From Dysgonomonas sp. PH5-45 (GTDB taxonomy: Bacteria; Bacteroidota; Bacteroidia; Bacteroidales; Dysgonomonadaceae), in NCBI RefSeq assembly GCF_029893235.1, contig NZ_JARXWE010000011.1:1-64000 (forward strand): DNA of 64,000 nt, in the 5' to 3' direction. Positions 22,241-29,224 of this stretch are shown here, one piece after another. Under the pieces are notes generated by a model. It searched no databases. It was not told where the DNA came from and was given only the letters and a program-made list of their open reading frames with translations. Position 1 is the first letter of the stretch. Each line of letters begins with the position of its first letter. Both the position numbers and the translations under genes were made by a program.

Positions 22241-25030
22241 ATGTCTGAAGAAAAAAATATAATCATAAAGGGGGCACGGGTCAATAACCTGAAAAATATT
22301 GATGTTGAAATCCCCCGCAACAAATTCATTGTTGTAACAGGCCTCTCGGGTTCGGGCAAGTCTTCGCTCGCTTTCGATACTTTGTACGCCGAAGGTCAAA
22401 GACGTTATGTGGAAAGCCTATCGGCCTATGCCCGCCAGTTTTTGGGGCGCATGCACAAACCCGAATGCGACTATATAAAAGGGATTCCGCCGGCAATAGC
22501 CATCGAGCAAAAAGTTAGTTCACGCAATCCCCGTTCAACAGTGGGAACTTCCACCGAAATTTACGAATACCTCCGCCTATTGTATGCCCGCATCGGAAAA
22601 ACAATTTCGCCTGTTTCGGGCAATGTGGTAAAGAAACATCAGGTAAGCGATATTGTAGACAAAATGCTGGCGTACGAAAACGGAACACGTTTAGTCATAC
22701 TTACCCGAATTATTCTGCGCGAAAACAGAACGGTTGAACAACAGTTAGATATCCTCTATAAAGAAGGTTTCTCAAGAGTAGAATATAAAGGGAAATTTGA
22801 ACGGATAGACGATTTACTGGCCGAAGAAGAAAAGCTCGACCTATCAAAACTATATCTGGTAATAGACCGCTTGCAATCCGACCACGACAATGCCATAATC
22901 AGCCGCTTCTCACAGTCGGTCGAAACAGCCTTTTTTGAAGGAGAAGGCGAATGCATCATTCGTTTTTATCGGGAAAAAGAGATAGAAACTTTCGATTTTT
23001 CCAAAAAATTCGAAGCCGATGGCATTCAGTTTGAAGAACCGTCCGACATGATGTTCAACTTCAACAATCCGGTGGGAGCCTGCCCCCGGTGCGAAGGGTT
23101 CGGACGAGTCATAGGCATAGACGAAAATCTGGTTATTCCCAACAAATCGTTATCGCTCTACGAAGATGCTGTTGTTTGTTGGCGAGGCGAAAAAATGGGC
23201 GAATGGAAAGATGAATTCATAAAAACATCTCACCTATACGATTTTCCCATTCACCGTCCTTATTTTGAACTGACGGACGCCCAACGAGACTTACTTTGGC
23301 ATGGAGCCGAAGGAGTGGCGGGCCTTGACGATTTCTTCAAGATGCTCGAAGAAAACCAATACAAAATACAATACCGTGTCATGCTTGCCCGCTATCGTGG
23401 CAAAACCACTTGTCCCGAATGTAAAGGTTCGCGTTTAAAAAAGCAGGCATTGTATGTTAAGGTAGGAGATAAATCTATTGCCGAACTGGTGAATCTGCCT
23501 ATATCGGAATTGAAAGAGTTTTTCTCTAACTTGCAACTCTCAGACACCGATGCTTCAGTGGGCAAACGCCTTTTTACCGAGATAAACAACCGAATACAAT
23601 TCCTGATAAATGTAGGTTTGGGATATCTGACTCTGAACCGCCTGTCGAATTCGCTTTCGGGTGGCGAAAGCCAACGTATAAACTTAGCCACATCGTTGGG
23701 AAGCAGCTTGGTGGGGTCGCTCTATATTCTGGACGAACCGAGTATAGGCTTGCACTCGCGCGATACTGAACTACTGATAAAAGTATTACGAGATCTGCGA
23801 AACCTCGGAAACACGGTTATCGTGGTGGAACACGACGAAGAAATTATCCGCGCCGCCGACTATATTATCGACATCGGCCCAAAGGCAGGCCGTCTGGGTG
23901 GTGAAGTAGTTTATCAGGGAGATATTACAGGCTTAGAAAAGAACACAAAGAGCTATACGGTACGCTATCTGAATGGAGAAGAAAAAATAGAAGTCCCCGC
24001 CACAAGGCGTAAGTGGAACAACTACATAGAGGTTTTAGGTGCGCGCCAAAATAACCTGAAAAACATCAATGTGAAATTCCCACTCAACGTTATGACCGTT
24101 GTTACAGGTGTGAGCGGTTCGGGAAAATCATCGCTCGTGACCGATGTTTTTTACAATGCACTTCGCCGTTATTATAAAGAAACAAGCGATGAAATCGTTG
24201 AATTTTCAGGCTTGGCAGGCGACTTAAGCCTTGCAAAGAATGTTGAAATGGTTGACCAAAATCCGATAGGGCGTTCATCGCGCTCCAATCCGGCAACCTA
24301 CATAAAAGTATATGATGAAATTCGCAAACTCTTTGCCGAACAGCCTTTAGCCAAACAATTGCACTTTACACCCGCATTTTTCTCTTTCAACGTAGAAGGC
24401 GGACGGTGCGAAGAATGCAAAGGCGAAGGCACGATTACGGTCGAAATGCAATTCATGGCCGATATCACGCTCGAATGCGAAGAATGTAAAGGACGCCGGT
24501 TCAAACAAGACGTGCTCGATGTTGAGTACAGAGGTAAAAGCATTTACGATATTCTGGATATGACCATCGAGCAGGCTATCGAGTTTTTCAGCACAGGCAA
24601 AGGCAGCTTTGAGAAAAAAATACTGAAACGCCTCAATACCCTGCAAGAAGTAGGGCTGGGCTACATAAAAATGGGGCAATCGTCTTCTACCCTTTCGGGT
24701 GGCGAAAATCAGCGGTTAAAGCTGGCCTACTATTTAGGAGAAGAAAAAACCGAACCCACAATTTTTATTTTTGACGAACCCACAACAGGACTTCACTTTC
24801 ACGACATCAAAACCTTGCTCAAAGCTTTCGATTCGCTGATAAGCCGGGGTCACACCGTTATAATCATCGAACACAATATGGACGTCATTAAATGTGCCGA
24901 CTATATTATTGATATCGGCCCTGAGGGAGGGAAACAAGGAGGTAACATCGTTTGCACGGGAACTCCCGAAAACATTGCCGGGAGCGAAGAATCTTACACG
25001 GGAAGATACCTGTCGGGGTACTTGTTGTAG
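22241..25030 (+). CDS. uvrA: Excinuclease ABC subunit A
   Basis: The DNA-damage sensor of nucleotide excision repair. It dimerises, loads UvrB on distorted DNA and hydrolyses ATP. Starting at 22241 ([16 protein letters not shown]) it has 929 residues, normal for the family. There are two ABC domains: Walker A '[10 protein letters not shown]' (about 32-41) and '[10 protein letters not shown]' (about 625), signatures 'LSGGESQR' and 'LSGGENQR', and Walker B with 'LDEPSIGLH' and 'FDEPTTGLH'. Zinc-binding CxxC pairs occur at 'CPRCEG', 'CPECKG' and 'CEECKG' (twice). The gene has its own promoter, and leuS follows after about 90 bases. Confidence 0.98.
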
Positions 25031-25080
25031 GGGTTATGTATTTATGCCTTGCTGTTACTAATTTAATTCAAAGAAATATT

Positions 25081-25088
25081 TACCTTTG
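25081..25088 (+). promoter_or_regulatory. -7 box before leuS
   Basis: TACCTTTG, a match to TAnnTTTG, lies 30 bases before the leuS ATG at 25119. No good -33 box at standard spacing. Its position argues against the in-frame TTG at 25086 as a start, since that codon lies within the box. Confidence 0.5.
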
Positions 25089-25118
25089 TCCCATCAAAAA
25101 AATATAGCGAAAAGGACT

Positions 25119-28100
25119 ATGGAATACAATTTTAAAGAGATCGAAGAGCGATGGCACAAGTATTGGTCTGAAAACAATATCTACAAAGTAACAGAAGATA
25201 AAAACAGACCTAAATATTATGTGCTCGATATGTTTCCTTACCCCTCGGGGGCAGGCTTGCACGTAGGTCATCCGTTGGGATACATTGCATCCGATATCTT
25301 TACCCGCCACAAGCGCCTCAAAGGGTTTAACGTTTTGCACCCTATGGGATACGATGCTTATGGGCTTCCCGCCGAGCAGTATGCCATACAAACAGGGCAA
25401 CACCCTGCCATTACAACAGCTCAAAACATTATCCGATATAAAGAACAGCTCGACAAGATAGGTTTTTCGTTCGACTGGAGCCGCGAAATACGCACCAGCG
25501 AGCCTATCTACTATAAATGGACACAATGGGCTTTCGTCCGGATGTTCAATTCGTATTTTTGCAACGACGAACAACAGGCACGGCCAATAGAAGAACTTGT
25601 CAGCGCTTTTGAAACCAGTGGAACAGAAGGCTTGAACGTTGCCTGCGGCGAAGAACTTACTTTCAGTGCCGACCAGTGGAAAGCAAAAACTGAAAAACAA
25701 AAGCAAGAAACACTCCTCAACTACCGTATCGCTTATCTGGGCGAAACGATGGTTAACTGGTGTCCTGCCTTAGGCACTGTATTGGCTAACGATGAAGTCA
25801 TTAACGGCCTATCGGAACGGGGAGGATATCCCGTTGAACAGCGCAAGATGCGTCAATGGTGTTTGCGTGTTTCGGCCTATGCTCAACGCCTGTTGAACGG
25901 CTTGGAAGAAATAGACTGGACAGAATCTATAAAAGAAACCCAGCGCAATTGGATTGGTCGCTCAGAAGGAGCAGAAATGCGATTTAAGATACACCGCCCC
26001 CTAACCCCCTCCAAAGGTGGGGGAACTGCAGGCTACGTCACCACAAACAAGTTAGACTGGCATGCCAATATAGATAATGCCAAAGAAATGAGAAAAACTC
26101 CCACTGAAACTGAGAATATTATGTGGGAGGCATTGCGTAACCGAAATGTGGGAGGTTACAAATTTCGTCGTCAACATTTGATAGACAGTTTTATTGTCGA
26201 TTTTGTTTGTCTTGAAAAAAGTGTTGTTGTAGAAATTGATGGAGGATATCACAACGACCCCACTCAAAAGCAAGCAGACCAAGCGAAAACAGAAAGACTC
26301 GAAGAATTAGGATACCACGTAATACGATTTTCAAACGAAGAAGTTATTGGCAGTCTGGATGAAGTTTTAGAAAAAATTAAAACCTACTGCCAACAGCAAG
26401 TCTCCTCCTCTGGAGGAGATTTAGAGGAGGTGGAAATCTTCACCACGCGTGCCGACACGGTTTTCGGGGTTACCTTCATGGTGCTTGCTCCCGAGAGCGA
26501 ATATGTTGTCGCATTGACAACCCCCGAACAAAAAGCCGAAGTGGATGCTTATCTGGCTGCAACAAAAAAACGTACCGAACGCGAACGCATCACCGACCGC
26601 AAAGTATCGGGAGTGTTCTCCGGCTCGTATGCCATCAATCCGCTTAACGGAAAGGAAATACCCGTTTATATATCGGACTACGTTCTTGCCGGATACGGAA
26701 CAGGAGCCATCATGGCTGTACCTGCTCACGATAGCCGCGACTATGCTTTTGCAAAACATTTCGGGTTGGATATAATCCCGCTTGTGGAAGGATGCGATGT
26801 AAGCGAAGAAAGCTACGACGCCAAAGAAGGCACAGTAATAAATTCCGACTTTTTGAACGGGCTGTCTGTAAAAGAAGCTATTGAACGGACAAAACAATAT
26901 ATAGCCGAAAAAGAGATAGGACGTGTAAAAGTGAATTACCGTTTGCGTGATGCCACTTTTTCCCGCCAGCGTTATTGGGGCGAACCCTTCCCTGTATATT
27001 ACAAGGACGATATCCCCTATATGATTCCCGAACAATATCTGCCGCTGGAATTGCCCGAAGTAGATAAATTCTTGCCCACCGAAACGGGCGAACCTCCTTT
27101 GGGAAATGCCAGGATGTGGGCGTGGGACACTGTGGGCAACAAAATTGTTGATAAATCACTCATAAACAATACGACCATATTCCCACTCGAATTGAACACA
27201 ATGCCCGGATTTGCCGGATCGTCGGCCTACTATCTGCGCTACATGGATCCTCACAACGAAAAAGCTTTGGTAAACAGGGATATTGTTGAATATTGGCGTA
27301 ATGTAGACCTATATATAGGTGGAACCGAACATGCCACAGGGCATTTGATTTATAGTCGTTTTTGGAACAAATTTCTATACGATATAGAAGTGGCATGCGA
27401 AGACGAGCCTTTCAGGAAACTGATTAACCAAGGAATGATTCAGGGGCGGAGCAACTTTGTTTACCGTATAAATGGCACAACCAAGTTTGTTTCCTTCGGT
27501 TTGAAAGAACAGTACGAAACCACCCCCTTGCATGTGGATGTGAATATCGTGAACAATGATATTCTGGATTTAGAGGCTTTCCGCGCATGGCGTCCGGAGT
27601 TTGCCGAGGCTGAATTTATTCTGGAGGACGGCAAGTACATCTGCGGATGGGCTGTCGAAAAAATGTCGAAATCGTACCACAATGTGGTGAATCCCGATGA
27701 TATAGTTGAAAAATACGGAGCCGACACCCTGCGCCTGTATGAAATGTTCTTAGGTCCCCTTGAGCAGTCTAAACCGTGGGACACAAACGGGATAGACGGA
27801 GTTCACCGTTTCTTGCGTAAGTTTTGGAATCTGTTCTATCAAGGCGATAGTTTTAATGTATCGGACGAAACTCCTACAAAAGAGGAGCTCAAATCGTTGC
27901 ATAAGATGATAAAGAAAGTAAGTGCCGATATTGAGAATTTCTCGTTCAATACATCGGTTGCTGCATTCATGATCTGCACAAACGAGCTTTCGGCTCTCAA
28001 ATGCAACAAGAGAGCCATTCTGCACGACTTTATCATCACCCTTGCGCCCTTTGCTCCGTTCATCACCGAAGAGTTGTGGCATAGCATGGGTAACGAAACA

Positions 28101-28340
28101 AGCGTTTTCAACGCCGAGTGGCCCGTTTTCAACGAAGAATATCTGAAAGAAGATTCCTTCAAGTATGGCGTGGCCTTTAACGGTAAAGTGAGGTTCGAGG
28201 TAGAGTTCCCTGCCGATGTAACGGCAAAAGAAGTTGAAGAAACAGTTTTGAAACACGATCTGGCACAGAAATGGCTGGATGGAAAAACACCGAAAAAAGT
28301 AATCTTTGTACCTAAAAAAATGATAAATGTGGTTTTATAA
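25119..28340 (+). CDS. leuS: Leucyl-tRNA synthetase with an in-frame DUF559 endonuclease-like insertion
   Basis: Charges tRNA-Leu with leucine and edits mischarged products. The class I signature HVGH is at residues 48-51 ('[12 protein letters not shown]') and Lys848-Met-Ser-Lys-Ser852 is the KMSKS loop. The editing (CP1) domain resumes with '[11 protein letters not shown]' at 440-450. The protein has 1073 residues, against about 940 for Bacteroidales LeuRS from memory. The excess is one block, residues ~293-437, between 'GAEMRFKI' and '[10 protein letters not shown]'. This block is a DUF559/Vsr-like nuclease domain flanked by Pro/Gly/Ser-rich linkers ('[10 protein letters not shown]', 'SSSGGDLEE'). 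The frame is kept throughout and all synthetase motifs are present, so the enzyme is probably active. I see no intein splice-site residues at the borders, so the insert should stay in the protein. yitT follows after five bases. Confidence 0.96.
25997..26027. repeat. Left terminal inverted repeat/hairpin of the leuS insertion
   Basis: Starting CTAA at 26001, the stretch CCCCCTCC-AAA-GGTGGGGG (26005-26023) can fold on itself with one mismatch. By hand alignment with one or two gaps, roughly three quarters of the bases from CTAA to ACT agree with the reverse complement of the right end. Confidence 0.65.
26398..26430. repeat. Right terminal inverted repeat/hairpin of the leuS insertion
   Basis: TCTCCTCC-TCT-GGAGGAGA (26401-26419) is a perfect 8-bp hairpin, followed by TTTAGAGGAGG. 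Read on the minus strand the end begins CCTCCTCTAAATCTCCTCC, matching the left end's CCCCTAACCCCCTCC pattern. Confidence 0.65.
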
Positions 28341-28345
28341 AAGCT

Positions 28346-29224
28346 ATGGAGAAAAATAAATATTTAAAAGATTTTTACTGGAAGGACTATATGACCATAA
28401 CCATAGGTCTGGTTCTTTATGCTGTCGGTCTGATAGGGTTTGTTGTACCCGGAGACATTGTTACCGGAGGTTTGGCAGGTATAGCCCTGTTGATAGAATA
28501 TGCAACCAACAAGGCTGTGCCCTTGCAGGTGTCGTATTTCGTTATTAACGTTGCCCTGTTGAGCATCTCGCTCAAGATTTTGGGACTGAAGTTCCTGGTG
28601 AAAACAATCTACGGCGTTGTCATGCTGACTTCCCTGTTGTTTGTTGCCCGTATGGTTATCCCTGCCGAAGGGCTTATCGACAACGAGCCTCTGCTGGCCG
28701 GTCTTATCGGCGGTTTGATTTGCGGCACAGGTATCGGTTTGGTTTTCAGCGCAAACGGTAGCGCAGGCGGTACTGATATTATAGTTGCCGTTGTGAACAA
28801 GTACAAAAACCTTGCTTTCGGGAGAGGGATGTTGCTGTGCGATTTCTGTATAATAAGCTGTTCGTATTTCATATTCGGCGATACTAAAATTGTAGTGGCC
28901 AGTCTTATCGTGATGGTGGTAATGACCTATATGATCGATATTGTTATCAACGGTTCCCGCCAATCGGTGCAGTTCCTTATCTTCTCGGACAAGTACGATG
29001 TTATTGCCGATGCTATCAATAAAGAAATGCATCGTGGATGTACAATACTGGACGGCACAGGCTGGTACAGCAAAAAACCTACAAAAGTTATTCTTATGAT
29101 GGCAAAACGAAGCGAATCGGTAAGCATCTTCCGGATGATAAAAAGTATCGATGAAAAGGCGTTCATATCGCAATCGACCGTTAGGGGCGTTTATGGGCAA
29201 GGCTTCGATGCTATAAAGAAATGA
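28346..29224 (+). CDS. YitT family membrane protein
   Basis: A 292-residue protein with about five to six N-terminal membrane helices ('GLVLYAVGLIGFVVPGDIVTGGLAGIALL' is the first conserved YitT stretch; 'GTGIGLVFSANGSAGGTDIIVAVVNKY' a second). A soluble C-terminal DUF2179 domain follows (about 215-290, 'RGCTILDGTGWYSKKPTKVILMMAKRSE'). The function of the family is unknown; DUF2179 domains may bind small ligands. It starts five bases after the leuS stop, so it is co-transcribed. The next gene begins six bases after its end. Confidence 0.92.
   Translation: MEKNKYLKDFYWKDYMTITIGLVLYAVGLIGFVVPGDIVTGGLAGIALLIEYATNKAVPLQVSYFVINVALLSISLKILGLKFLVKTIYGVVMLTSLLFVARMVIPAEGLIDNEPLLAGLIGGLICGTGIGLVFSANGSAGGTDIIVAVVNKYKNLAFGRGMLLCDFCIISCSYFIFGDTKIVVASLIVMVVMTYMIDIVINGSRQSVQFLIFSDKYDVIADAINKEMHRGCTILDGTGWYSKKPTKVILMMAKRSESVSIFRMIKSIDEKAFISQSTVRGVYGQGFDAIKK

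Follow-up and report, generated by a model that had tools for sequence, protein, structure and literature searches.

A nuclease domain of the DUF559 family lies in frame inside leuS, the leucyl-tRNA synthetase (LeuRS) gene of Dysgonomonas sp. PH5-45, where its reading frame has neither a start nor a stop codon of its own and is set between two inverted palindromic DNA ends. Judging from sequence comparisons, this arrangement is quite probably a selfish mobile element of small size: ribosomes would read straight through it when making the host protein, an open reading frame would replace splicing, and the element would spread by homing-type DNA cutting. The window analyzed is the 64,000-nucleotide stretch formed by positions 1 to 64,000 of contig NZ_JARXWE010000011.1, and its relevant features are collected in Table 1.

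Table 1. Features of leuS and its in-frame insert, given as window positions.
Feature	Position	Strand	Evidence
leuS, leucyl-tRNA synthetase with in-frame insert, 1073 aa	25119..28340 (including stop)	+	ORF, Pfam, NCBIfam
Host codons 5' of the element, 11 aa, residues 281-291, first strand at the editing-domain root	25959..25991	+	strand 281-291 in the LeuRS model
Whole element: palindromic end, nuclease, palindromic end; about 10 host codons replaced	25992..26433	+	natural empty sites; joints of LeuRS relatives
Left palindromic end, C-rich, 11 aa in frame	25992..26023	+	consensus pattern with 2 mismatches; reversed control 0 in own genome
DUF559 / Vsr-fold / I-Bth0305I-like nuclease domain, LeuRS residues 319-424, D361 E372 D374 H378	26073..26390	+	Pfam, alignment, structure and profile matches
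Right palindromic end, inverted copy of the left, 10 aa in frame	26402..26433	-	22/33 aligned positions identical to the reverse complement of the left; 11-nt hairpin arms
Host codons 3' of the element, EIFTTRADT, second strand, including TTRxDT coding DNA	26434..26459	+	strand 436-442 in the LeuRS model

The leuS frame is unbroken from its ATG at 25119 to the stop codon at 28338-28340, and across the inserted block the used frame contains no stops while the other two contain 11 and 8. Pfam places LeuRS domains on both sides of DUF559 (PF04480), which matches residues 319-424 with an E value of 6.8e-34 and 116.5 bits, well above the curated cut-off of 20.6, and the product as a whole matches the bacterial LeuRS model TIGR00396 of NCBIfam at 887.8 bits (cut-off 548.4). 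The sequence-only reading had proposed that a DUF559 domain with an intact acidic core is inserted in frame at the root of the LeuRS editing domain. The continuous 1073-residue frame and the strong profile match agree with this proposal, as does an AlphaFold model of the protein, which is closest to LeuRS structures (2bte, E 1.3e-58). There the block forms a separate region of helices and strands (residues 311-426) held by two low-confidence linkers between strands 281-291 and 436-442, in a model based on 19 sequences (pTM 0.63) whose domain placement is unreliable. The leuS copy is the only DUF559 found in the 2.65-Mb genome, and a LeuRS query of that genome gave one LeuRS-level match, with the next listed match at E 3.3e-10. 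The insert-bearing gene therefore seems to be the sole LeuRS of this organism, and because no other was found, the enzyme presumably works.

The acidic core is indeed intact. Residues D361, E372, D374 and H378 (D64, E75, D77 and H81 of alignment A4, from which the ruined copies in G010 and G022 discussed below are left out) are invariant in 81 of 81 aligned sequences and, by analogy, are putative catalytic residues. No other Pfam domain is present in the block, and its AlphaFold model (pLDDT 81, pTM 0.75) is one compact domain with loose ends. The best fold matches in the PDB are NGO0050 (3hrl, E 3.8e-7) and the catalytic domain of I-Bth0305I (3r3p, E 6e-5, TM 0.79), with the Vsr structures 1cw0 and 1vsr matching weakly (E 0.1-0.2). 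Profile searches with the nuclease likewise recover 3hrl (E 2.5e-31) and 3r3p (E 6e-7). Fold similarity, profile similarity and the conserved acidic and histidine core all place the domain in the EDxHD/Vsr-fold group.

Comparison with natural empty sites refines the boundaries of the insert. Most insert-free relatives have a 24-residue stretch or something similar across the site, and carriers read GAE(M/I)...PLAPSKRGG...nuclease...PSFGGDLGEV...FTTR. The block had been described as an addition spanning 25995-26430; the insertion stands, but the better bounds are 25992-26433 (442 bp), and about 10 host codons have been replaced, which a simple addition would not do. Similarly, the Pro/Gly-rich joints seen earlier are present, but they are better described as translated palindromic DNA ends that are mutually inverted and, in this copy, eroded. 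Only 22 of 33 positions agree between the two ends in the window, and 21 of 500 simple shuffles match equally well, whereas several relatives have near-perfect inverted repeats at their ends.

The ends were assessed across 136 distinct elements, drawn from 161 matches after dropping those below 45 bits or near locus ends. As inverted repeats, they exceeded all 50 shuffles in 61 of 101 embedded copies and in 17 of 35 free copies, and did not do so in 40 of the 101. Each left end fits its own right end better than those of other elements (0 of 2000 permutations). A consensus end is present in 12 of 17 chosen genomes and its reversed control in 0 of 17, although the count in carriers is partly by construction because the pattern was drawn from the elements. 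The five genomes lacking it are three without a nuclease-bearing insert (G007, G335 and G332) and two with ruined inserts. We rejected the notion of high-copy palindromes in the Dysgonomonas sp. PH5-45 genome itself, since a loose pattern gave 14 matches and its reversed control 10. Palindromic DNA that lies in frame within a gene, and is presumably translated, fits the RPE-type protein-coding palindromic elements; these are short and have no protein domain, a description that suits the nuclease-less mini-copies described below but not the full, nuclease-carrying element.

Relatives of this nuclease are commonly found inside other proteins. Named species genomes were scanned with 24 embedded domains (A1), and among the best 80 of 562 confirmed loci, selected irrespective of frame, 73 have the nuclease in frame within a larger ORF and seven are free copies. 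Here "embedded" denotes an open frame of at least 260 residues; in L148 and L182, both counted among the 73, the domain is at one terminus of the host. The proportion holds for this nuclease lineage rather than for DUF559 at large. The embedded copies occupy the LeuRS editing root (22), a second site in IleRS (12), RecG (11), ValRS (6), a UvrD-like helicase (5), MetH (3) and the IleRS editing root (2), with the remaining 12 in Lhr, MazG, DegT (two), Gmk, HutU, a second LeuRS site, AroC, RecJ, a helicase, a third IleRS site and a GATase protein; for L174, L179 and L191, which a contig end or stop interrupts, the site was re-assigned from the flanks. About twenty kinds of host protein carry such a nuclease, and among these best 80 loci the LeuRS, IleRS, ValRS and RecG positions are occupied recurrently.

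Broader surveys give a similar picture. Among the matches listed from 295 genomes of the order, 26 DUF559 rows lie in open frames of 311-1459 residues, whose hosts, identified by Pfam and flanking motifs, are LeuRS, IleRS (two sites), ValRS, HsdM, HsdR, Mod-type and Eco57I-type methylases, type ISP enzymes, a capsule-type enzyme, an aminotransferase and an acetyltransferase. Long DUF559-bearing frames are also present in G325, G334 and G336, where those of 1018-1038 residues were taken as ValRS by their length. A separate draw of 395 genomes from the phylum places 27 of its 28 best rows, the window's own included, in frames of 425-1402 residues, and the lower-scoring rows among the matches listed are mostly in short frames. 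Restriction-modification hosts (HsdM, HsdR, methylases and type ISP) are frequent, as at L080, L082, L091, L092, L094, L095, L096 and L097. Separately, Pedobacter sandarakinus (L186) has a tandem array of three free DUF559 genes that are nearly identical and spaced 561 bp apart.

Trees of the nuclease domain, which are built from 113-114 columns and have few well-supported branches, group the inserts by host site. On a tree of 139 domains, host-site labels require 28 changes, compared with 85.7 when shuffled, and the LeuRS and ValRS inserts of a single genome (G021) each group with inserts at the same site in other organisms. Such site-wise grouping is the pattern that allelic homing with rare jumps would give. 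On the same tree, 29 of 35 free copies fall together and six fall among the embedded copies, so embedded and free domains do not separate cleanly into two clades. In a smaller tree, of 65 domains, 26 free copies, six restriction-modification copies and a single acetyltransferase copy lie on one side of a branch with support 100/98, and the synthetase inserts with four other domains lie on the other. Six of the eight restriction-modification copies side with free DUF559 and not with the synthetase inserts, which could mean that in-frame insertion evolved on more than one occasion. We also observed that a RecG insert from a record titled Limnohabitans sp. MAG20 (L152) groups inside the RecG inserts of Flavobacteriaceae, possibly on a mis-binned contig.

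Some copies consist of the palindromic ends without the nuclease. Mini-inserts of this kind lie in frame in a ValRS-type synthetase (L225, G011) and in a carbamoyl-phosphate-synthase-like CarA/CarB-like protein (L237, G351), with both hosts named by eye. The LeuRS of G011 holds a full element and two mini-copies, in a ValRS (L085) a mini-copy follows a full element, and the LeuRS of G350 has a mini-copy at the same second site that holds a full element in Ilyomonas (L208). Extra palindrome copies in carriers, apparently intergenic, are found at L219, L230 and L232. Paired inverted palindromes with dispersed copies, as seen here, are a REPIN feature, and RAYT proteins are Y1 tyrosine transposases. 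One might therefore view the palindromic ends as the mobile unit and DUF559 as its transposition nuclease, with selection sparing the copies that land in frame and recurrent sites being hot spots rather than homing targets. The nuclease-less pairs, both intergenic and in frame, accord with this explanation, as do the inverted-repeat ends on 17 of 35 free DUF559 copies and the co-variation of left and right ends. We nevertheless consider it unlikely, because inserts cluster by host site across genera, the same LeuRS, IleRS, ValRS and RecG positions recur, and the fold is of the homing/Vsr type.

The distribution of the element among close relatives is patchy. The Dysgonomonas family was represented by 101 genomes, of which 94 gave a matched LeuRS; the block is present in 14 (12 with intact nuclease motifs and two ruined) and was not seen in 80, some of which are partial sequences. 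An alignment of relatives, which the sequence-only reading had recommended as a check, accordingly reveals that they differ at this site. Presence was mapped on a LeuRS tree from which the block had been removed, using 55 rows of 59 loci (21 with the block, 33 without and one scar; L101 was left out as a duplicate, L102 and L103 as split genes and L130 as partial). It needs 17 changes, at least 13 of which are forced by well-supported branches, and the mean for shuffled labels is 17.1. Filled and empty alleles can be close neighbors: of the 16 hundred-base blocks closest to the site, 15 show 90-97% identity between filled G323 and empty G335, with 75-88% further right, and the flanks of filled G341 and empty G007 are 82-94% identical, with G343 likewise lacking the block. 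The empty alleles retain KVKDSD-type codons, which simple excision of the element could not bring back.

A series of decayed forms accompanies this scatter. The nuclease is ruined in the LeuRS inserts L022 and L023 (G010 and G022), where core motifs are lost without a frameshift (in G010, FVDF has become a FAPF-type sequence and EIDG has become DIES), and in a second, degraded DUF559 copy at another LeuRS site in G099 (L087/L170, residues ~804-898, 24.5 bits). G332 retains the left palindrome alone at the site as PLTPQKRGES, and the mini-copies noted above (G011, G350, L085, L225 and L237) extend the series. Three other irregular LeuRS genes were observed. In L179, a stop codon immediately follows the nuclease and the remainder of LeuRS continues in the same frame, which may reflect a broken gene, a sequence error or readthrough. 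L102 (G005:C22:288500-295500) and L103 (G003:C115:34500-40800) are each split into two ORFs before YPLEL(S/N)TMPGFAGSS, the second LeuRS site used by mini and full elements, and ~2-2.6 kb with other ORFs lies between the halves (by eye RhuM-like, and in L102 perhaps also Mrr-like); these are naturally fractured LeuRS in two genera. Finally, one genome with an insert-bearing LeuRS has a second, partial one (G001:C42:1-1557, 69% identity) that may be contamination.

Intact inserts evolve under constraint. Their pN values of 0.12-0.28 are well under their pS values of 0.56-0.83, and thus insert residues are under purifying selection; these are proportions with synonymous sites near saturation, and so do not yield an exact dN/dS. 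Insert pS is lower than host pS in 34 of 36 pairs, which are not independent of each other. Even the ruined copies in G010 and G022 have a pN of 0.198 and a pS of 0.657 (0.078 and 0.763 for the host part), a hint that the nuclease fold matters to the host protein too. Both forms of constraint would suit a domesticated domain whose nuclease is kept for host benefit, such as a DNA damage response, phage defence or control of editing, and PMC12907096 reports that a Vsr-like DUF559 protein of Caulobacter causes a DNA damage response. Domestication is nonetheless improbable given the patchy presence among close relatives, the existence of ruined copies, the roughly twenty types of host protein that carry such a nuclease and the ends typical of mobile DNA.

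The histories of insert and host are also discordant. For nine related inserts, host data reject the insert topology with DNA (p=0.0009) and protein (2e-9), and insert data reject the host topology with protein (p=0.010), although not significantly with DNA (p=0.053).

Splicing-type devices accompany other homing nucleases. By this precedent, illustrated by the introns and inteins described in PMC3943268, RNA splicing, protein splicing or ribosome bypass could keep the block out of the final product. We regard such removal as very improbable. No intein splicing (Hint) domain was found in the leuS product among Pfam matches to E 0.1 or NCBIfam matches to E 0.01, no Rfam group I or group II intron family matches positions 24500-29000 at E<=1, and the nuclease follows the host frame in 73 of the best 80 of 562 loci. 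Furthermore, excision would leave a gap in the product because host codons have been replaced. Even less credible is an ancestral LeuRS part lost many times, which would account for the finding that several families within the phylum have inserts here but conflicts with the short turn shared by empty alleles across the LeuRS tree, the disagreement of insert and host trees and the same nuclease lineage in unrelated proteins. An assembly artefact or contamination was rejected, since such blocks occur in isolate records (e.g. Dysgonomonas sp. 521 and PF1-14) and type strains and the insertion is thus real; phage or plasmid cargo was also rejected, the domain occurring in 39 plasmid records, all below 60% identity, and in three weak phage records.

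We therefore return to a translated-through homing element, for which we infer nuclease activity and mobility from sequence. The nuclease, made as part of LeuRS, would cut leuS alleles that lack the insert, close to the conserved codons for TTRxDT. The break would then be repaired from a horizontally acquired copy that has the insert, and the element would thereby enter the cut allele. TTRxDT/TTRPET codons lie directly 3' of the insertion in LeuRS and ValRS alike, and the enzyme might aim at them. Rare moves to a new gene could be aided by the palindromic ends. Tolerance may stem from the position of the element, which occupies a turn joining two strands and is attached by flexible linkers, and from palindromes that are open in the used frame, so that the host protein would be made as a fusion that still works. 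Translation through the insert would thereby fill the role that splicing has in inteins and introns.

Scattered presence, tree conflict and site clustering are indirect signs of spread of the homing type. The earlier proposal of a selfish insert that is translated through, resembling an intein without splicing, draws further support from the inverted-repeat ends, mini-copies, ruined copies and many unrelated host genes. Several observations count against homing. The EDxHD homing enzymes described in PMC3943268 carry extra DNA-binding regions, a typical though perhaps not a defining trait, and none is visible in the block. The eroded ends in the window, the 40 of 101 embedded copies with unremarkable ends and the insert-side DNA test weigh in the same direction, as do the stop codon of L179, the constraint in the ruined copies and the small, poorly supported domain trees. 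Regardless, we lean towards a new class of mobile element: translated-through homing elements without an encoded splicing device, whose stop-free palindromes would serve both as mobility signals and as protein linkers. Their hosts would be the conserved cores of synthetases, helicases and metabolic and restriction enzymes across Bacteroidota, and autonomous copies, REPIN-like mini-copies and a decay cycle would complete the class. The titles and abstracts searched, a partial coverage of the literature that does not imply absence from print, contain no description of DUF559 as an in-frame element.

In the textbook case, a homing element conceals itself in an essential gene by being spliced out; this DUF559 family appears to conceal itself by staying in. 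If true, these elements allow one to ask directly if parasites of essential genes require splicing at all, and they supply a natural map of insertion-tolerant sites in LeuRS, IleRS, ValRS, RecG and other proteins. They would also provide a route for new domains into conserved enzymes and explain the fusions of DUF559 into synthetases.

Inteins place a nuclease in frame within conserved genes, are patchily distributed, recur at the same sites and leave ruined copies. The LeuRS element is like inteins with homing endonucleases in each of these respects (PMC3943268), but no splicing domain was found in it, and it has palindromic inverted-repeat ends and nuclease-less mini-copies. Its catalytic domain resembles the EDxHD homing endonuclease I-Bth0305I (3r3p) in fold and profile. 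That enzyme is phage-derived, has extra DNA-binding parts and recognizes a target of nearly 60 bp, as described in PMC3943268, whereas here a bare domain of ~105 residues resides inside a host protein. Another parallel is offered by intragenic REPs and the palindromic elements of Rickettsia, in which palindromic DNA is likewise inserted in genes and translated. Those described in PMC3733652 encode about 20-82 residues and bring no nuclease, whereas the comparable ends of the LeuRS element flank a conserved one. REPIN/RAYT systems share the paired inverted palindromes and the existence of copies with and without a nuclease, but the LeuRS element has a DUF559/Vsr fold rather than a Y1 (HuH) tyrosine transposase, and many of its copies are inside genes. 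Finally, Vsr and free-standing DUF559 proteins, such as VsrA of Caulobacter and NGO0050 (3hrl), belong to the same domain family; VsrA and NGO0050 are encoded by stand-alone genes, whereas the LeuRS nuclease is embedded in its host protein.
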